Origin: Paracamarosporium sp. OC-R06-R3
Taxonomy: Eukaryota > Ascomycota > Dothideomycetes > Pleosporales > Didymosphaeriaceae
Length of the DNA stretch: 64,000 nucleotides
Assembly (NCBI GenBank): GCA_019828545.1
Contig: JACVRA010000190.1
Span: 1-64,000, forward strand
Direction: 5' to 3'
Below the pieces are notes generated by a model. That model did no database searches. It was not told the origin of the DNA and worked only from the letters and a program-made list of their open reading frames with translations. The position numbers and the translations under genes are program-made. Shown in pieces: positions 3,073 through 62,903 of this stretch; within the stretch, counting starts at the first letter, position 1, and every line of letters starts with the position of its first letter.

Positions 3073-4279
3073 CTAATCCTGCCTTGCCGGATCCAGTTCT
3101 ATCCTACCTACAATCCCATCGATCTCAGCCAATACTTCCGGCGTGAATTTATCCAGCACTTGCAATGCCTGGCAGTTTTCCACCACTTGCTCTGGCCTGG
3201 AGGCGCCCGTGATGACGGACGAAACGTTTGGATTTTTCAAACACCACGCCAACGCAAGCTGGGACTGGGTGACACCCAGCTTGTCGGCAATAGACTGGCT
3301 CTTGTTAATATCAAGCATTCTCTCAGCAGTGTATTAGCATACCTTGAGCTTCCTAGAGCTCTCAATCATTCCTTTCCAGCTGTCGTTCCCGTACGAATCC
3401 CTCATGTTGTTGACAAATCGGTCCTTGCCTTCAGCAAAACGAGATCCGGCAGGAGGCTTCTCCGGGCTATCATCATACTTTCCGCTCAAAATACCAAACT
3501 TGAGCGGCGAGAAAGTAGTCAGACCAATACCAAAACGTGAGTACAGCCGTTGAAACTCTCTTTCAACTTTTGTTCTTGCAAGTAGGTTATATTGTGGTTG
3601 CTCCACAACTGGTGGGATAAGACCTAATTGCTTTGCAATGCCGCATGCCTCAGCAATCTCGTCCGCCGACCACTCGCTCGTACCCCAGTACAAAGCCCAT
3701 CCCTTGATCTCAATGACGTGATTAAACGCTCGCACAGTTTCCTCCATGGGTGTCAAGCGATCTGGTCGATGCGCATACACGATGTCCACGTACTCGAGGT
3801 CCAGCCTTTTTAGTGAGGCACGCAGTCCCTCGATGATGTGCTTCCTCGACAAACCGTGATTATTGACGAGAACTTCGCCGTTAACGGCGCCCCAATTCAA
3901 CTTCGTACTAATGACAATGTCACTGCGATTCCATCCGAATTTCTTGATGGCTTGACCCATGACAATTTCGGATTTTCCGGCGGTGTAGTTCTCAGCCGTG
4001 TCGAAGAAGGTCATCCCGCAGTCATATGCCTGCTTCATGCAAGAAAATGTGAGCTCTTTTACTAGTCTCAGCGCCAATGTACCGCCTCCTATACTCCAAT
4101 TCTCTTACCATTTTCAACGTGACCACCAAACCTAAGGAATCTGTCAGTAGCCTACAAGAAGCTGTACTTGGGACAACTCACGTGAGCCAGCCACCGAGAC
4201 CCAGAGCAGAGACGTGCAGTCCCGAGTTCCCTAGACGACGGTACTGCATACCCGTCTTTCGAGGTTCCTCCCAAGCCAT
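3073..4279 (-). CDS. Aldo-keto reductase, voltage-gated K+ channel beta-subunit type
   Basis: NAD(P)H-dependent aldo-keto reductase of the Kv-beta/AKR6-like group, 351 aa, presumably cytosolic. Exons are 4182-4279, 4109-4131 (a 23-nt microexon), 3343-4055 and 3073-3294. The N-terminus reads YRRLGNSGLHVSALGLGGW, the usual first strand. FFDTAENY supplies the Asp and Tyr of the catalytic tetrad, ISTKLNWG the Lys and VYAHRPD the His. The C-terminal ITGASRPEQVVEN segment is the family's cofactor-binding region. Introns are 48-53 nt with standard ends. The substrate cannot be read from sequence. It lies tail-to-tail with nothing obvious, 361 bp from the stop of the MFS permease gene on the same strand. 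Family assignment is firm; the physiological role is open. Confidence 0.9.
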
Positions 4280-4640
4280 ATTATGGATTTAATCTTGTGG
4301 TAAATTCGTAACTTGAATGGGTAAGAGAAACGATATATTCAAACAAGTCGACACTGAAGACATTCAGTATGACAGTGTGACAAATTTTCACTCCAAGCGG
4401 GGATATTGCTGGATCGAGGAAAGCGACGAACGTCTGCGCGAATTCGAAAAAAGGGCTGCATGCATGCGAGATCTGTAGTTCGGCATAAAGACCTTCCGTA
4501 TTCTTACAAGTGTACCATAAAAGATGGGGAACGTGGCAGACCCCACCAAAGCTAGGAAGATTGATTCCTCCGGCATACAGCCGCCACTACGAGGAACCGC
4601 CGAGCCTCAATATTTGCTCAATAGTTCACAAGCTAGTGTT

Positions 4641-6280
4641 CTAAATAACGAATCTAAAATCCAGCCTTTTGTTGCCGTCTCGCTCACGTGCCTCGAGATC
4701 TGATTGGTATAATGCCTTCTCCTCCGTTGTCATTGCCTGCCACTTCTCATCTTTTTTCTTGTTCAAGTACACCAGCACCTGGCGTTGGATCACCATAGTT
4801 ACTAGGGCAAGGGCACAGATCGCGACGCAAACTTTATTACCTTGCTTGTAATAAGGTGCGTCATACTTTCGATAGATCTGGGACCCGATGAGCGAGCCTA
4901 CTTGCACGATGACGTTGTAGGTAGCAGCTGTGATAGCCCGCTTTTTCACATCGAACGTATTTTCCGAGATCCAGGACGATATCAGAGGATGGAAGTACGG
5001 GTAACCTGAGATGAGAGTAATCAGGGTAAAGCGGGACCATTCACGGCCGCCATCCGGAATCGTGAGAAGAGCAATCAAGAGTGGCATTATCCAGAATTCG
5101 CCGAAAATGATATGCAAGGTACGCTCGTTGAAGTAGTCGCTGCTATATGCTAGAGTCAACATGGTTATGATTTGAAGTGCAGCCGAAGGTATGGTAAGCA
5201 TGTTCGAGTTGAAGGTCGAGAAGCCGAGACGCTTCAAAGTCAAGCTGAGGTATCCAGTGACGGGCGTAGCAGGAATATAAGCAACCAGTCCGAGGAAGTA
5301 GAGTCCCCACATAGCAGGGTCACTCCATGCTGCTTTGATGTCTTTGAATGTTGCAGGCTCCTGGAGCGCTGTAAGACCCTTTGCGGGGTCATCGCGGAGG
5401 ATGCGCTGCACTTGTCAGTCCTATTCAATCTGAGCTAAGTCCTCCCACTCACATTGACCATGATTACCTCCTCGCGTTCAGTGTACCACCCTTTACGGAA
5501 CAAAAGTCCTTTGGTTCCCACTGGCGAAGACGGAAGGTAGATGAAGGAAACGAGAGCAATGGCAACTGTCAATAATCCCTCGATTAGAAACAGCCAGAAC
5601 CATCCAGGTTTCCCTTGAGTGCCACGCATCTCCAAGATACCAGCTGCCAACAATGCGGAAATCACACGTGCAACATTCAGCGTGGACCAGAAAGCTGCCA
5701 GACGGATCGCCAACTCCTTGGACTTATAGAAGTACGTCGCGAATAGAATAACACCAGGAATGAAGCCACCTTCACACGCACCGATCAATGCACGGGTGAT
5801 GTAGAATGAAGTGCGGTCGTGCATCCACGCTTGAGCCCAAGAAACCGTGCCCCAGAGGAACATCATCGTGGGTAGTATGTATTTGAATCCATAGCGCTTG
5901 GTGAGGAACTGGACCGGAAACTCGGCAGCGAGGAAACAGACGAGCTGGATTGTGGTTCCATTGTTGTAATCGTCAGTCGTCAGATTGAGGTCGTCCAATA
6001 GCTTGTCGGTGAGCGCGTTGCCTAGGTTGCCTCGATCAAGTTGCAAACCGAACATCATGACGCAGAGCCATGAAAGGAGGAACAAGTCTGTTTTGAGCAC
6101 AACGTGCTTTTCCTCTGCATCTGTCCATATCGCCGTTGGGTCAAACCGATGTCGACCTTCGTATGTTTCGTGAGGCGGTGTTATATCGGCGAGTTCACTA
6201 CGTCCGACCTTCAGGGGTGCCTTGAGTGAGCTAGCGTCCTCGCTCACTCTCGCCGGGGCAATCTCGATATCGTTTCCCAT
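4641..6280 (-). CDS. MFS permease, Dal5/allantoate-permease (ACS) family
   Basis: Twelve-segment major facilitator transporter, 530 aa, exons 5453-6280 and 4641-5405 joined over a 47-nt intron (GTGAGT, TGCAG). The N-terminal cytoplasmic tail is followed by a first segment (DLFLLSWLCVMMFGLQLDRGNLGNAL) typical of the anion:cation symporter family. FITRALIGACEGGFIPG-like sequence (here YITRALIGACEGGFIPGVI) is the family's segment-4 signature. The C-terminal tail is short and charged. Family members carry allantoate, vitamins, nicotinate, or sulfate and sulfonates. It is divergent from a TauD-type dioxygenase gene (485 bp between starts), which makes an organosulfonate substrate the best inference, like yeast Soa1. 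The substrate is inference; the family is certain. Confidence 0.9.
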
Positions 6281-52428: not shown

Positions 52429-55400
52429 TTATCTCGACCAAGGACTCCACATCGACCAAAGACTGACCGTCTTTTCCTTGCCGCCAAAAGATATCTCGCT
52501 AACACTATCACCTACTTCGCTCGCAAGCTCTGTGATATCAACCTTAGTCTGCAATGCTCGCAGTTGCGTATTGCGGAATCTTCTACGATATCTTCCCTCG
52601 CGGGCCAAAAATGACCGCGCGACAATATGGTCAATGTCTTCCTATGAGATTTGTCAGCTTTCGCACCCATCGGAGCATTGTTGCATGATAGGGTGTTAGT
52701 ACCGATGTAAGGGTAGGGTCGAGAAAGATCTTTCCCTCAATTTCCTTGTATATGTGGCCCAAGAATTCGAGCTCCTCGATCTCCACAAGATCTTTGCTGA
52801 TGATGAGAGATTCCTTTTCGGTGTCGGGTCTCGCGTGAGAAATGCGATATGCGCCGACTTGAGGTTTATACATGTCTGGGCGGAACTCAGCTTAAAAATC
52901 GCTTCGGAATGCCTAGATAACGTACCGCTGAAGAACTGGGCATGCACAGGCTGCGCACCAAAGAACCATGTTTGCCCTGACACTATCGACATCAAATTAG
53001 ACCTGGTATCAAATATGACAACCGCTAGAATGAGACGTACCTGTAGTCCTCACATACGTAGGTCTCCATCCGGAGCTGCGAAGTGATTTGTAAAGGTCTG
53101 CTTCAGCTGTCGATGCGGGAGGCTGCCAGAACAGCGTTCCGCGTAAGACGTTTCCGCCAGTCCCTATCTTTTCGAATCGTCCGGCTCCATCCTGGGCTGA
53201 AGGCTCTCTTTCTTCAAAGTAGGGCGTGAACCCACTCATGGACAAGTAGTTGCCAAGTTGGTTGTGCCCTAAATCACTCCAACCTGCACGCGGTGGAAAT
53301 ACGATGACGTTTGAAGATTCTCCGCTGGAGGGTGCGGTTTCAGATGGCGCTGTAAATCTTCTGATGCGAGGCTGCGGTATTGAATGCATATACGGGTCTC
53401 TGTCACCCCATTTGTTCTCGAAAAGTTCGCTTTCGGCACTGGCCTCTTCAGTCTCGGTTTCATCTTCATGATATGAACCCAAAGACGAGTTCTGTGCCGG
53501 TCTCTCTAAGTAGTCAAAGACGTTTAGGTGCTCTTGAGATGCCTTTGTGGTGCCGGATATTGTAGAAGGCTCCTTAGGTTTGCGAGCAGCAAATTCATCA
53601 TTATACTTCTTGACGTAGACTTCGGCACGCATGTTCGCTTCTTGGGTTTTCTTTTGTTCGGTCTTGATAAGATCCTCGTAATACTGGCGGCTCTCCTCCA
53701 AAGCTTCTTCCAACGCTTCCTGTTGTTGCTCTTCGCACTCTTCGATCTTGCGGCTGAGCTCTTGGTTGGCATACTTCTCTATCCGCTCTCTTTCCACGGT
53801 CTAATTGTGTATGGAACCCAATGGTCAGTCTTTATCTCGTATGTCTTAAAAAAGGGAGGGAAGAGAATGTGAGTCGCCACGAGAGACCTCAGTAGCGCCG
53901 CAACTTAGTCGGGATATTATGAGTTTCCTCAAAGCACCAGGATTGGTAAATCCTAACTGTAGGAAGACGTTGAACTCACCCACTCCTGGTTTTTGTCATG
54001 ATTGAACCTCTCTATGATCCCATATAGCCGATCTATTTCTTCTTTATAATACGAGGGCGGCGTGTTCGTAGTTTCGGTCTGTTCATTTAGCATCGCTCGC
54101 AGATACATTGTATTTTCGAGCATTCGTTTTTCGTCCTTCCATTTTTCTGCTTCTTGTCGGGCACTCTCTTGCAGCTCCATTATGGTCTTCTTAAGCTCCT
54201 CTTCTCTTTCTTTGTGTGCCGTAAATACTTTTTCATCCTGTTGCGCTTTTACCAAGCCATCTTCTTTTCTTGCTTCCTCGGTAGCCCGACGTACTTTTTC
54301 GCCTTCTATGTAATCGCTCAACTGCTTTCGTAATTCAACTATATCAATATTCTTTCTGTCATCTGAAGGTCCACTCTGCTCATAAAAACTGATTGGATAG
54401 TGGCTGCCATATGGGACCATCTGAGGACCAATCAATTGGGATGCAGTGGGATACGAAAAGTGAGGTAGAAGACCAGCTGGTAGGAGAGTACTGGTGCTAT
54501 GCGAGTTCATGACTGCCCCAGTCTGCTGAGTCTTATGATCGGGTACAATAGTGGTGGACAGATGTCGTGCACTTGGGAGGTTACGACGTGTAGAGACGCG
54601 TGAAATCGCTTCATCACCCCCTACCCCATTGTGAGACCCAACATCCTTTCTGTGGCTACTAGACTCGCGTGTTGAAGCACGCTGGTCCCGAGACCTGCGA
54701 TCTGAAGTACGCTCAGGATCCAAGAACTCTACTCTGGAGGAGTTGTGATGACCTGTGTGTCTCTTGGCGCTTTGTGAACGGCGACTACTGCCCTCGCCAG
54801 TTGACTGCTTTGTTATAGTCGACTTCTTCGGTGCCGGTTGCTGTTCCGTAGCTGTTTTTCCAACGATTATCCTAACTTGTTGACCTCCTACCGTCTGGGT
54901 TTCATCCATTCCTTGCCGAATGATGATGGGCTTGTTCGTAGAAGACTCTGATGTTCTCGGTAAAATAATATCAGGAGATGGAGCTCGACTTGCAACAGTA
55001 ACAGGGGCTTTCCCTTTGGATGCTGTTGAATTCAAGTCCAGGACAGAGATCTCTTCGACTGAAATACCGGTGTCTTTTGGATCCTGGCCGGTTTCAGGGT
55101 CTGAGTCAAGCCACGGGTTGTCTCCAAATTGACCTAATATACTGCTGGTTGTATCAGGACTCCGAATCGAACTGTCGTTAAGCTTGAGAGTGGATTCAAC
55201 GGCTTCGCGTTTTTCAGTAGCCCCTGTCGATGGCATGCGAGACTCGCCGAAAACGAAGGCTTTAGAATTATCCTCTGCGGATGATTGTGCTTCAGTTGCA
55301 CCTTTGACCTTTTTCCCTTTTTTTTTCTTAGATTTACTTGAGCTGCCAAAGTTAAAACCCCAGTCATCACCCCAGCCGTCATCGTCGGCGACTTTGCCAG

Positions 55401-56670
55401 CCTCTCGGTTTTCTTGAGTGCTCCCCACAAGAGCGGTGGATTGACTTGAGGAAGTCTTCAGCAAGCCAGGAGGCGTTGGCACTCTTGGAGGGGGCTCGTT
55501 GTCCACCTTTTTGGCATCTGAACTCTGCGATAGGTTGACTGTGGAGCCATTCAGGTCTTTGTCGTTTTCCGTCGTTTTGCTACGGTGTCGGGTTGGCGGA
55601 GAGCTCCCGTCATCAGAAGAGGATTTCTCATTCTTCAAGTACCATTTGATGACGCGACGGGCGGTGCTTTGAAGATGCGATCGTCCTCGGTCACTCGATT
55701 CGGCAATCTGTCGGATGTCATGGAAGCTCAGGCCCGTCCATCGCTCGAGAAGTTCATTGACCACCCTACTTCTTACGTTACTCAGGTCAAGCTCCCTCTC
55801 CAGATCAGGAGGGATCGATCCTGTATCATCTTCTTGTTCGCTATCAGACGCTGCTCCGTTTCCGTCAGCTGTGGCTATTGTTCTAACGCGTCCACCTCTA
55901 GCTGTGAGACGGTGTTCATCAGGCTGGGCACTTAGGACTTTGTGAAAGATGAGATCGTATATCCACCCTGCAGTAGATCCGGGAGACTCAGTCCAGTAAT
56001 GGAGTTGGAATACTTCGCGAGGGAAACCCTTCTGTATGCGGCGTTCCGAATTCATAAGTGCCTTGATGACCTGCCTGTTCGTCTCGACCCAGCTCTCGGC
56101 ACACTCGCACTCCATTGCCATTAACATGGCCACTTCTTCGTTCCTTTTCTTCTTCTTCTTAGACCTGTTGAGGTTAGTCTGTAACAAAATGCATCATTGC
56201 TTAAGAACATACGTCTTGTTGCTGGATTGACGAACGTCTGCAATCTTGAGTATGGACAATAGCAAGCGCAGGGGCTCCTTGATTGAATGACATTTGGTTA
56301 TTAGATAGGCGCTTTCGTTCTGGAAGAGTCCTTTGAGCCATCGAGGAACTCGTTTGGGGACGAAGTCGTTCAGCGCATCTTCAAACTCTCTGACAAGCAT
56401 GTCGAGCCGCCCAAGAATAATGCCGGCATCGCCTTTCTTCCCGCGCACTTTGTCTTTCTCGAGCAGAATACACGATTCTGTACATAGCTGAGCGATGTCG
56501 GCGAATTCTCGCGCAATGTTGCAGATTGCTTGCGGGATGGAAGAATCAGAGTCGGTATCTACGACGAGGCCAGAGGCAATGTCGAAAAGTGTATGCGACA
56601 ACTGGCTGGTTCGTTTCGCAATATCGGCAACGCCGTCAACGGCGGCCTCTGCATTGAGGCGCGTTTTCAT
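52429..56670 (-). CDS. Large multidomain protein: helical N-domain, coiled coil, ubiquitin-like-type C-terminus
   Basis: 1284 aa in six exons: 56213-56670, 53980-56164, 53041-53800, 52926-52976, 52703-52890 and 52429-52641. Function unknown. Residues 1-150 are all-helical (DGVADIAKRTSQLSHTLFDI, then LVREFEDALNDFVPKRVPRW) and resemble the fungal N-terminal domain found on STAND/NLR proteins. A Lys-rich patch follows (SKKKKKRNEE). Then comes a globular part (SERRIQKGFPREVFQLHYW), a disordered Ser/Thr-rich middle of about 450 residues, and a coiled coil (EEARKEDGLVKAQQDEK through IEECEEQQQEALEEAL). The C-terminal region has WFFGAQPVHAQFFS and EELEFLGHIYKEIEGKIFLD, like C-terminal blocks of fungal proteins labelled ubiquitin-like. 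Intron 4 is only 35 nt (52891-52925), the least certain join. It neighbours the SesB/NLR pair. Confidence 0.7.
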
Positions 56671-57437: not shown

Positions 57438-58768
57438 TTAAACTGGTAGTAGTTGTTTAGCGCTGTACTCTGAGTAATTCACCAAGCCACTCACTGTATG
57501 TGAAACGCTCAAATTGTTCGCGTTCTTCACGGTCGCTACGACATGACCAGTAACAATTCCATAGTTGAGGACATTGTCGCCTTGCTTCACGTTTCCGAGG
57601 CTTATCGATATATTCCCATGCTAAACAAATGTCATTTTAGTAAGGAAGGTCATGCATGACGTGGAAATGAAGTTCTGCGAGCTCTTACCTCCTTGCTAAC
57701 AGTCTTCTGGCCCCAATTTTCAATCATCAATTTCATTGTGTCAGTCGCATCGATATAGCCGGTAGTTTGCGCGTCCGTGAACCTACACACTAATTTAAAA
57801 CGCGTAGAGTAAGCTAAAGCACATCCATCTTGTGTTCAAGATTTACGTACTAGCGCGATGATCTGCATTGATAGGCATAGGCTGGTATCCGGCAATTGAT
57901 GCGGACTGTTTGGTTACAATGAGACCCAAATCTTTTTTCTTCTTCCACATAGTTGATTTAGTTTCGAAGAAACACGCAACTTGGATTGGGCTGAGTTCTT
58001 TCGATTCATAACGTTGTTGCAGTAGCAAATGAAAGTCGGAGCTAATCTGTTGCAGTTTGGTGCTTTTTGTATCAAGATCTTTGATGATCTGGTCGTTACT
58101 GTCACCTAGCATGCTTAGCACTTTCTCCGCAAGACCGGCCCATGAAGCTTTGTCGGAACCCTTGAAGGGTGTACCCAAGAAAATGGTCCCACACGTATTG
58201 GCTATGACTTCTTGACGTTGTTCGTTCGAGCCACTTTGGCTTGAGAGACCGTTCGCAACAACAAGACCGCCAAGCGAATGGGCCACAAATACAATAGGAC
58301 GATTCGTCTGTATTGCAGATATGTCAGTACGAAACCATGGCGATAACGAAAAAAAAAACATACAGTAGCTGTCTCTCGCCTACGGTTTCCCAACTTAACT
58401 AACAACGCAGTCGAGTTGTCGTCGATATTGGTGTGTGCGACTGCGTCCGCCTTTATCACAGGGTAGAATGTAGCAAATTCCGTTGGGTAGCCGAAGCTAA
58501 ATATCCGACTTTCTGGAATAGTCGACGGTAGAAGCTCCTTTGGCCAGTATACTCGATCTCCATCAGCGTCACAGGCTTCCCATGTTGTTTGAGGATGGCC
58601 CCGCAATCCATGAACAAAGACAATACTGTAGGGTTAGTTTTCGTACCCCGCGCATAGGGTTGACATGTCTCACTCGACCTTTGCCTTCTCGCCAGCATCC
58701 CACAATTGATTCAAGCCATCAGGTATAATCTTGTCAAACTGATCGCTTGTAGCTTCGAAGCGCATCAT
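57438..58768 (-). CDS. SesB-type alpha/beta hydrolase with C-terminal amyloid-like motif
   Basis: Predicted serine lipase/esterase of the SesB kind, 365 aa. Exons are 58674-58768, 58364-58625, 57851-58307, 57689-57789 and 57438-57620. The fold starts VDIVFVHGLRGHPQTTW (oxyanion region, His37). The nucleophile is Ser130 in VFVAHSLGGLVV, and His269 in MPINADHR is the likely catalytic His. After the hydrolase domain the last about 60 residues are Gly/Asn/Val-rich: LGNV (313-316), GDNV (319-322), NYG (324-326), GHVV (330-333). The same pieces occur in order at the N-terminus of the divergent NLR gene. In known fungal systems such paired motifs form a shared amyloid that carries the NLR signal to the effector. 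The C-terminus after residue 349 is uncertain because a GTGAGT donor occurs there (SHT, then GTGAGT). Confidence 0.8.
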
Positions 58769-59554
58769 TTTCGACGAACCGGCTAAAGTAGTACTGGATT
58801 AGATGATGATTGAAAAGAGTGTAAGAGACACGAAAGGGTGAGCATCGCAGCTCTCAGAAATAGTCGGCAGAGTCGTAGCCCATGATAATTGGGTCCTGGA
58901 TACATGTTTGCACCTGTACTGCCCCTAGTCATTTCAGCCCGAGTGAAAATCGACCATGCATGCATATTGCAGATGCAATGTGACACGGAGTCATATCTCC
59001 TTCAAGCCAAAAACGCCACCAATTGGGCATAGCTGGCTGAATTAGAGAACGCCCGACCGACAACAACGAACCGCTACGCGTACCAATGAGAGAGCCTGAT
59101 GTCGATGGCAGGGTTAGGTCAACGTAACAATACTAGTGTTAGTCATCCGAGATAGGTCCTCCGATCAATCTAGAGTTGCTTCAGTATCGTATGGGTTTAG
59201 CTATTTAGGTTGGATCAATATATGACAGAGGCGGATGTGGAGCTTTACGTTATCCTTAGATGTAAACTTATATTTTTATTCGCTCAGAACACTCACCGGA
59301 GCGTGTCTTGATTGAGTGACCAGTAGCTGACGCTGCCAGTAGCTGAAGCTGTTATCTTTGCATTGTTGGGGGCTGAATCTCACAAGCGGGGTATGTGGTT
59401 CGATGGGAAGGCTGAGTTGCAAGGCTGAGAAGGCGGCCACTCACCTGAGTCAGCTTGTCGACAAGGGTCACGTATCAATTTTGAGAAACAACCCCTCAGG
59501 TTACGCAACATCAACACAGAGATTGCATTAGGATGATTTTCTCCTACTACTCTG
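58769..59554. promoter_or_regulatory. Divergent promoter of the SesB/NLR pair
   Basis: 786 bp separate the two ATGs, which point away from each other. A shared or facing promoter is implied by the layout. No specific regulatory site recognised. Confidence 0.5.
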
Positions 59555-62500
59555 ATGGAAGATTTCCCAACAGCTGGCTTCATGGCATCGTCGCTTGAAA
59601 GGATCCCGTTAGCGCATAGGCGGCTTAGCGAGACCGGCGGGCCTGGTGAGCACCTGAGGCTAGGAGACGTTGACAACAGAGGCGACACAGTCGCTAGTCC
59701 GAACTACGGCTCTCGTGTAGATGGCCACGTTGTTAACCTAGGACATGGTGGAATTAGTGCGCGCCCTTATTCCTCTGTGCATTGTACGCTTATTTATGGC
59801 CAGATATTGAAACAACTAATAGCCACAATTACTCGCTCGAAGCGGGTGCGATCTTAAACGTCCACACAGAGCCAAATGATGAACGGACCAAGGTACATGT
59901 AACCTACATCCCATTTGCGTGTTCCTACTGACTTTAATGTGAAGGTACGCCATCCTATTTGACGTAGAGCTGACGTAGGTGGACTGATTTCCCTACTTCT
60001 CATTATAGGTCATTTCGTGGCTTGATCGGTTGGGTGGCTTGGATTTCGTTCCCTTTCACCGAGCAAATCTAACACAAAAATGTGACGGGGTAGGTACGTG
60101 GATGCTCGAGCACGAGCGATTTCAAGCTTGGTTTAATGGAACTTGTCGAACTCTTTGGGTTCATGGCATTCGTAAGTTGTCAATGGTAATATCTAGAACA
60201 CCCAGTTTACCACTGAATAGTCGGTTGCGGCAAAACGATTCTGGCGTAGGTGCTTTCTATCGAACATACAAAGGAGCTCATTTTTATTGATTATTCAACC
60301 TGGGTAGCCTCAGTGCTATGACCAAATATTCAATAGAAACGAGCTCCTTCGTATACTGGCTGATTGTCGTATCTAATTGTATCAGATCAACAATCATCGA
60401 ACATCTCGAGACTAGAAAAGATGGATCGGTCTGTCTGTTCGTCTTCTTTGACTATATGCAAAAGGCCGTGCAGACGCCCTACAATATTACCGTCAACCTA
60501 CTGAAACAATTGGTCCAACAGCATGCCGATCTCTCAGAAACAGTGAGAAACATGTACACGGACTTCAAGCACCTAGCTACCCCTCCTAGTACCCCTCAGC
60601 TCATAAACGTCATTAAATTGGAAAGCAGGCGTTTCAGAAATGTACGTCTTGTTATTGACGGCCTTGAGGAATGTCCGGCGCATGCGTCCGATAACGCTAG
60701 GGCAGCATTTCTTCACATGGTTCTCAGCTTAGCGCCAGAAACAAGCCTACTGTTCACTGCTAGAAGTCGTGAACTTGAGAGCCATGATGTAGGAGAGGTA
60801 ATTGAACTGGAATATGTACCAAGAACCGAGGATTTGGATCGCTATCTGCGAGCTCAAATACAAAAGCACTGCGCCTACAATGAGCATCTTGCCAGAACAA
60901 ACCACGATGAACTCATCGAGATAATCACAGAACAGGCTAAAGGCATGCTGCTACTTGCGCGATTGCACATGAACGCGATTGCAGCGCAGCACACGTCGGC
61001 AGACCTCCGGTCAGCTCTAACGAGTTTACCATTTGATATCAAACACACGTACGGGAAGGCGATGCAGAGAATAGCGACTCATGATCTACCAATTGCAGAG
61101 CGGGTATTGATGTGGCTCACCTTCGCTACACGCCCACTGACCGTGACGGAGCTCCGATCAGCCTTGGCAATTAATAACAATGTCGTAAGTATGCGAACGG
61201 CTGAAGAGTACATGTATAGCGAAAGGCGACTTCTAGATGTATGTGAAGGACTGGCTGTCGTGGATTGTCGAAAAGAGGCAAAAATCGTGCGTCTAATTCA
61301 TCCAACAGCACTAGATTATTTCGAAACCTATTTCGACAATAATGAGGTGCACAAGTCGTTGGCAGTGACCTGTCTTCTATATCTTCAGTTGGAAGATTTG
61401 GGAACTGAGGTCCATGATCGAGATCACATACTCGCACGATCCAAAGAGTTGCCGTTCCTTCGGTATGCCGCTCTAAACTGGGGCCATCATGCTCGTCAAA
61501 CGCAAGATACCGATGTTATAGACATGGCTATTGAGTTGCTACAGAGTAAAACATACTTGATGTCTACTGCACAAGCCATGGATCCTTGGGATTATGACCC
61601 GGTCTCTGGCCTTTACGTTGCAGCTTATTTTGGCCTAAGAAAAGTTGTCGATAAACTTCTTTCGCAAAATCCTAAGAGCATTGGGGGGTCAATGTATGGA
61701 GAGACATCTATGCATACGGCTTCGCGCGAAGGACATACCACCATTATAAGAATATTACTCGATCACGGACTGGACCCAGACCACGTTAGTAAAGAAGGCC
61801 GTACGCCTATTTCTCTAGCAGCAGAGAATGGGCATCTCACTGTTGTCCAACTCTTAATAAGCTCCCACAGAGTAAACATAAATTCCCAAAGCACGACTCC
61901 TTTCCATAAAGGACGTACACCGCTGTCATGGGCATCCGGCAATGGTCACCATGCCATAGTCGAGTATCTGCTGACCCAAGACGACACGCAGGTGGGTACA
62001 CCAATTTCAAACGGACCTTACCTCGGCCGCACCGCCCTCATGCTTGCAGCACGCAACGGCCACAAAAAGGTGGTCAAGCATCTCCTTGAGAAGGAACAAA
62101 CAGCTGCTAGTGCGATCGATGGGGAGGGTATGAGTGCACTCGCGCTTGCCGCTCAGCAAGGTTATGCTGATATAGTCAAGCTCCTTCTACCTGCGGATGT
62201 GGCTACTGCTAAACGAAAAGATGACATTGATAAGAAGAGACCTATCGACTGGGCGTTATGTAACGGCCATGAAACGGTTGTCAGGGTGCTGCTCACCTAT
62301 CCCAGTTTCGACTCCAAAGATGGCGCAGAACGTACAGCACTGTCATACGAAGCACAATACGGGAATCTTGATCTCGTCCGACAACTGCTCGATTTAGGTG
62401 CGAATCCAAACTCGGAAGATGAGGAAGCCTGGACGCCCCTATCCTACGCTGCAGAATTCGGACACGTACACGTGGCCGAGCTTCTTCTTCAAATGGGCGC

Positions 62501-62903
62501 AAATGCAAATGCTCAATCAATCGACCGTCGCTCCCCGTTATCTTTCGCATCGCAAAAAGGACACACTGAGATCGTTGCTCTACTCCTGAAAAGTGGTGCT
62601 ATGCCAGACAACTTGGACAGGCTCAGTCGTACACCACTCTCATATGCTTCCGGCAGCGGTAAGATCGAGGTTGTGGAAATGCTCTTAAAGCAGGACGTGG
62701 ACGTCAATCTCAAAACAGGCACCACTTCCTGGACTACGCAACCGCCTTTGATGTGGGCAGCTGCAAATGGACACAAGGACATAGCAAAGAAGCTACTTGA
62801 AACAGGGCAGATCATATTAACGCCGGAAGATGAACTATTTGGGGAACTAGCTATCGATTGGGCGAAAACGCACGGGTTTACAACAAAAACCCCACACTCA
62901 TGA
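59555..62903 (+). CDS. NLR: amyloid-like N-motif, NACHT-type P-loop NTPase, ankyrin repeats
   Basis: 998 aa in four modelled exons: 59555-59845, 60009-60171, 60221-60245 and 60386-62903. Residues 33-64 carry LGDV, GDTV, NYG and GHVV, matching the tail of the adjacent SesB-like hydrolase. Exon 2 reads VISWLDRLGGLDFVPFHRAN, then FQAWFNGTCRTLWVHGI, the usual lead-in to fungal NLR P-loops. The 25-nt exon 3 completes Walker A (GILGCGKT, about residues 150-157), and exon 4 continues ASTIIEHLETRKDGSVCLF. Walker B is VRLVIDGLEE (about 245-254), sensor LLFTARSR. A winged-helix part (WLTFATRPLTVTELRSAL) and LIHPTALDYFE precede about 12 ankyrin repeats (about 557-980; for example GRTPISLAAENGHLTVVQLL). 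The exon 1-2 join is the weakest (163-nt intron, GTGCGA donor). Probably a cytosolic non-self or damage sensor. Confidence 0.78.

Follow-up and report, generated by a model that had tools for sequence, protein, structure and literature searches.

A candidate SesB-type hydrolase/NLR signalosome in Paracamarosporium sp. with a shared terminal motif of a probably undescribed class

A 64,000-nucleotide stretch of the Dothideomycete Paracamarosporium sp. OC-R06-R3 (GenBank assembly GCA_019828545.1, contig JACVRA010000190.1, positions 1 to 64,000; hereafter the window) carries two divergently oriented genes, one for a predicted SesB-type alpha/beta hydrolase and the other for a NOD-like receptor (NLR). 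We consider it probable that the pair forms a two-gene signalosome of the sesB/NLR kind, in which the oligomerised receptor would template the hydrolase through a motif that lies outside the known families open to comparison. The motif class is probably undescribed, and it seems to serve non-NLR partners as well. A preliminary description of this DNA had proposed a signalosome with a lipase-type effector. The head-to-head arrangement of a SesB hydrolase and an NLR with matching terminal motifs agrees with that proposal; a bond between the motif class and NLRs does not hold, because for three of the four pairs no NLR domain was detected in the partner.

The last exon of the hydrolase gene encodes HGNISIS followed by the blocks LGNV, GDNV, NYG and GHVV, which are separated by KQ, L and IVT (spacers of 2, 1 and 3 residues). 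The first exon of the NLR gene encodes, after an arginine, the blocks LGDV, GDTV, NYG and GHVV, separated by DNR, ASP and SRVD (spacers of 3, 3 and 4 residues). The order of the blocks and their spacers had been reported in the preliminary description together with the head-to-head genes and the 786-bp gap, and all of them are exact in the sequence and in the gene models.

Local alignment of the two motifs gives a score of 54 with gap penalties of 7/1, which was reached in 8 of 10,000 double shuffles; with penalties of 11/1, the score of the alignment was reached in 57 of 10,000. The 10 kb around the locus yield 348 six-frame tiles; of these, the tile from the NLR gave the best score against the hydrolase C-terminus (54; next, 37). 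Genome-wide searches with either window motif alone returned just the motif itself, plus one stray match (E-value 0.27) at C50:376063, in a stretch where no NLR was seen. The likeness is modest: it goes beyond chance, and is convincing, at the predicted place, which is the first exon of the adjacent gene, but it would be a weak match in a search made without that expectation.

In this genome, the closest paralogs of the hydrolase are those on contigs C61, C3 and C306 (in a labelling where the window locus is C74). They end in related motifs, MGPTHYNGPIHGNTGVISGNIYSTKQDGVRLVGS (C61), PSISVAGNVTHGDNYGGQQFGHLVATKRDGNRINGS (C3) and RVYVSGDITYDRTVNYGGVLTGHVVSTKQNGNRIIGS (C306), followed by short tails. 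Leave-one-out profiles recovered the hydrolase motifs among 7,135 segments with E-values of 0.0048 (C61), 1.9e-6 (C3) and 1.6e-10 (C306), and the motif of the window hydrolase was recovered at 0.004 by the profile of its three paralogs. When the C306 peptide was searched against the genome, the matches were C306 itself, C3 (1.6e-4) and C61 (0.13). In 4/4 hydrolases, a predicted intron lies directly ahead of the motif exon. The presence of related motifs on four hydrolases fits a distinct class.

Each of the C61, C3 and C306 hydrolase genes lies head to head with another gene, with gaps of 408, 556 and 679 bp, respectively, measured from Met codons taken as starts. The first exons of these partners carry counterparts of the motif: INGATIHGASAWNRGAITGNIGGDHNQIIG (C61), NVRGNLDFAGQNNQHGFAAGNIVGNNRITG (C3) and GDHIHAGGAQTFQGANKVDGAQAGHVVGDSNTFVG (C306). 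Since these counterparts were first spotted by eye, a fair test is their rank over all local tiles, which is 1/362 for C61, 3/359 (a tie for second) for C3 and 2/402 for C306, with the window at 1/348. Fisher combination of the four pairs, window included, yields 6.6e-7, and 3.6e-7 if a weak pair at C327 (L033; rank 22/367, p 0.03) is added; the latter was tried as a fifth member and set aside as a PUASM-like lead. Within this set of four, every partner reaches its top score with the hydrolase beside it, and none of the 24 possible pairings does better than the true one. A frame at L031:675-809 outscores the C3 partner (54 vs 42); it lies past the stop of the partner, is Arg/His-rich and was taken as a chance match. 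No further loci were found among the fetched loci with a profile of all eight motifs. Homologous gene pairs lacking the motif, which would speak against the proposal of the preliminary description, were sought in this genome only: the three nearest paralogous pairs carry it on both sides.

No NTPase or NLR domain was detected by Pfam in the scanned frames of the C61, C3 and C306 partners, the end of the C306 partner (L051) having been read outside the Pfam scan. Likewise, a genome search with NPHP3_N found nothing at the three partner places, and NB-ARC was not searched genome-wide. Some coiled-coil-like hits below cut-off were found in the scans of the C3 and C306 partners, which are homologous to each other. 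A related gene at C174 shows neither the motif nor a hydrolase within the 4 kb read. A possible phase-1 donor lies directly after the motif, at N-x-(I/F)-x-G, in 4/4 non-NLR partners.

The motif of the C61 partner recurs at C60 with 72 percent identity (E-value 1.1e-8); this copy is followed by the same helical region as in the C61 partner (68 percent) and, farther along, by a zf-C3HC4 RING finger (4.6e-5, above cut-off). Judging from the order of the frames and from a brief stretch of similarity to the C61 partner at the C-terminus (tblastn E-value 0.061), the RING finger probably belongs to the same gene as the motif. Upstream, the contig breaks off after about 1 kb, so any paired hydrolase there would go unseen. 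Comparison of the C61 and C60 motif exons gave a ratio of nonsynonymous to synonymous substitution rates (dN/dS) of 0.14 over 37 codons, and a ratio of the corresponding proportions (pN/pS) of 0.26 (bootstrap 0.12-0.47); the helical region, with a pN/pS of 0.27, resembles the motif exon. The C60/C61 motif exon is under purifying selection, and the motif behaves as a selected module encoded by an exon with predicted splice sites.

Because the class is also present on partners without a detected NTPase, the receptor side appears to be exchangeable, and the loci suggest that an NLR, a helical protein and probably a RING protein can occupy it. A wider proposal, which we regard as possible and still doubtful, is that these loci represent a new motif family combining a SesB-type effector with an exchangeable receptor: an NLR in the window, partners without a detected NTPase at three places and a RING protein at a fifth.

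The identity of the window proteins was also examined. The Pfam matches of the hydrolase, DUF676 (0.0014) and Abhydrolase_6 (0.0015), are both below the Pfam cut-offs. Its homologues in the same genome include two that end in a sigma motif, at C89 (1.3e-18) and C131 (2.3e-18), and one at C114 (9.9e-18) that shares a single frame with NPHP3_N. SesB-type, the name used in the preliminary description, is the right one for the predicted protein because of this homology to sigma-ended hydrolases and to one that is fused in frame to a NACHT-type domain. The window hydrolase shares with its three nearest paralogs the sequence AHSLGG and, late in the protein, a His within A-(N/D)-H. Overall, 28 exon-level matches to the hydrolase were found at 19 genome places. 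C-terminal frames were read at 11 of them (the window, L030-L033, L035, L036, L039 and L041-L043); L034, L037, L038, L040 and L044 were covered through BLAST, open reading frame lists or Pfam only, and C194:118342, C175 and C48 lay outside the reading. Comparison with solved structures gave no match for the hydrolase and just two, at chance level, for the motif (E-values 0.56 and 0.68), and no NCBIfam family was found for five proteins.

On the receptor side, the spliced peptide matches NPHP3_N (3.5e-33), NACHT (1.7e-12) and GPIID_WHD (6.4e-7), and the frame at 60318-62900 matches Ank_2 (3e-74) and Ank (9e-67). With such domain matches, the predicted receptor is an ordinary NACHT-ankyrin protein except for its unusual N-terminus, and the sequence does not confirm its earlier characterization as a divergent NLR.

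A count published in 2025 divides the fungal amyloid signalling sequences into five families, HRAM, sigma, PP and PUASM 1-2 (PMC12261475). A 2022 survey describes 16 motif profiles in NLR N-termini; in that survey, effector-side motifs were found through their nearness to NLR genes, and significant neighbour-side counterparts are given just for HRAM, PP, sigma and PUASM, plus a rare PNP_UDP motif (PMC9815663). The relationship of the window motif to these families can be summarized as follows:

(i). Sigma (sesA/sesB/het-eN) is similar in arrangement, with a SesB-type hydrolase carrying a C-terminal motif beside a NACHT-ankyrin receptor that carries an N-terminal one, and sigma loci with the same gene arrangement are present in this genome. 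Another likeness lies in the extensions, which resemble each other more within a cluster than across clusters; for published sigma loci, similarity inside a cluster also exceeds that among orthologs (PMC3321046). In contrast, the published sigma elements GxGxQFN and GGTQNINT are absent, by eye, from the window motif. The Pfam model NACHT_sigma (PF17106) had zero matches on the window proteins at E 10 with HMMER filters on, and matched the C131 hydrolase (2e-11) and, just under cut-off, the C131 NLR (5.6e-6).

(ii). PP (HELLP/SBP/PNT1) also has a putative lipase (SBP) among its effectors and an adjacent NLR (PMC5485727). By eye, the window motif differs from PP in lacking a GLQL core. The Pfam model Ses_B (PF17046) was equated with PP, since the sequence that it matches in this genome follows, on inspection, the PP pattern of the literature; it had zero matches on the window proteins and matched C327:399700 with 34.2 bits. 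Sigma and PP membership was rejected on these Pfam models, both of which match elsewhere in the genome, in agreement with the earlier remark that the motif does not clearly match the two patterns.

(iii). PUASM shares a Gly-rich motif common to the effector C-terminus and the NLR N-terminus (PMC9815663). PUASM membership of the window motif was rejected on comparison with two published peptides, and the window pair shows neither the PUASM 1 pattern FxGxGxQxxGxGxF nor a PNP_UDP effector. Two partner motifs of the class weakly resemble one published PUASM peptide.

(iv). HET-S/NWD2 and the HRAMs have the same logic of templating from receptor to effector; the window effector differs from that of HET-S/NWD2 in being a hydrolase, not HeLo. 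HET-s_218-289 (PF11558) had zero matches on the window proteins, and a genome search, which lacked a positive control, was empty.

The comparison of the window motif thus covered the Pfam sigma, Ses_B and HET-s models and two PUASM peptides, the profiles of HRAM1-5, PUASM 2 and NLR34, an unassigned motif of PMC9815663, lying outside it. A narrow check of open-access literature titles found none that deals with such motifs on RING proteins or on partners other than NLRs. Two side observations concern known motif families in this genome. At C327 (L046, G000:C327:395000-404900), a 166-bp tandem array of 2.9 copies at 4274-4758 consists of repeated motif-coding DNA; it runs at its end into the Ses_B (PP) match at 4701-4781, which precedes what looks like an NLR. 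At G000:C306:553576-555223, three NACHT_sigma matches fall within 1.7 kb; the hydrolase pair of C306 is some 17 kb away. Taken as a whole, the HeLo, SesA and SesB repertoire of the genome points to a filamentous ascomycete.

For the window pair, we infer the receptor splice, the amyloid fold, the templating and the output according to the following scheme. Ligand binding by the ankyrin repeats would cause the NACHT receptor to oligomerise, and the N-terminal motifs brought together in this manner would adopt a beta fold, probably amyloid. This fold would template the same fold in the C-terminal motif of the hydrolase, and templating would cluster the lipase/esterase domain and activate it, with cell death or defence as the probable outcome.

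The same motifs admit a different explanation, namely that they are a matched recognition module of a non-amyloid kind, an ordinary beta or docking interface through which the hydrolase is brought to the oligomerised receptor. The window motifs are less rich in Asn and Gln than the sigma motif, the receptor-side copy has several charges, and both length and sequence of the motif differ between pairs, all of which would suit such an interface. We nevertheless consider this unlikely, as the place of the motif on both proteins, the adjacency of the genes, the Gly-richness and the likeness within pairs are known traits of amyloid motifs, as described in PMC3321046 and PMC5485727.

Several observations weigh against a templating signalosome; two of them, the result over 8,470 tiles and the failure of the family profile to recover the NLR motif, also speak for the rival idea that two Gly-rich terminal stretches resemble each other by chance. 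Over 8,470 tiles (the window plus the fetched loci), the NLR tile shares first place with an unrelated window tile, with a per-tile Gumbel p of 1.2e-4 and an E-value of about 1. Two other pairs match far more strongly than the window pair, namely the sigma pair of C131 with p 4.1e-11 and the pair at C171 with 1.2e-7. A profile made from the remaining seven motifs misses the NLR motif, whose link to the class thus rests on the pairwise match and on its place, and profiles recover the partner-side motifs poorly or not at all. In addition, the window motif is absent from the matches of the C306 peptide in the genome search, and the C306 hydrolase scores 47 with the window NLR vs 39 with its own partner. 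Chance is, however, improbable as an explanation in view of the first rank of the NLR tile at the predicted neighbour, the recurrence of the arrangement in three more pairs with the combined value given above, and the purifying selection seen in the motif exon of one partner in the class. A last point against the signalosome is the splice of the NLR N-terminus, for which 44 open joins were enumerated, none ideal by the scoring used, so that the choice is ambiguous; yet it is very improbable that the motif exon is a short gene of its own or non-coding, as two in-frame, stop-free models (994 and 998 residues) join it to the NACHT exon, and the het-eN motif of Nectria was likewise concealed by an overlooked 5' intron (PMC3321046).

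The coordinates of the candidate signalosome and of the C60 copy are given in Table 1. Downstream of the hydrolase gene, the window contains two reading frames of 744 and 158 residues (53953-56670, minus strand), with zero Pfam matches at E 1 and without similarity to the partner proteins.

Table 1. Predicted features of the window gene pair and of the C60 locus (positions in the window unless a locus is named)
Feature	Position	Strand	Remarks
SesB-type alpha/beta hydrolase gene	57438..58768	minus	365 residues; five-exon splice model without internal stops
Hydrolase modelled exons	58768-58674, 58625-58364, 58307-57851, 57789-57689, 57620-57438	minus	
Hydrolase C-terminal motif LGNVKQGDNVLNYGIVTGHVV	57537..57599	minus	Start of last exon; read from sequence
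Divergent intergenic region	58769..59554		786 bp; bounded by ATGs at 58768 (minus) and 59555 (plus)
NLR gene	59555..62903	plus	994-residue model
NLR exons, 994-residue model	59555-59783, 59843-59892, 60009-60171, 60221-60245, 60386-62903	plus	
NLR alternative first exon	59555-59845	plus	998-residue model
NLR N-terminal motif LGDVDNRGDTVASPNYGSRVDGHVV	59660..59734	plus	Begins 36 residues after first Met
NACHT-type NTPase and winged-helix region	60009..61334	plus	Pfam on spliced peptide
Ankyrin-repeat region	61611..62900 (limits approximate)	plus	Pfam on frame 60318-62900
C60 copy, L052 (G000:C60:313000-317278)	Motif at 3124-3237; RING finger starting near 2206 and running downward	minus	

If the wider proposal of an exchangeable receptor is correct, firing of a lipase by an amyloid-type switch would not be tied to NLRs, and most of the class would escape surveys that take NLR genes and their surroundings as the starting point. 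Such a switch could then be fired by a broader range of sensors, given pair-specific motif variants on partners other than NLRs, a RING-finger protein among them. The existence of four paralogous pairs in one genome (C74, C61, C3 and C306) would make motif specificity and cross-seeding barriers directly testable.

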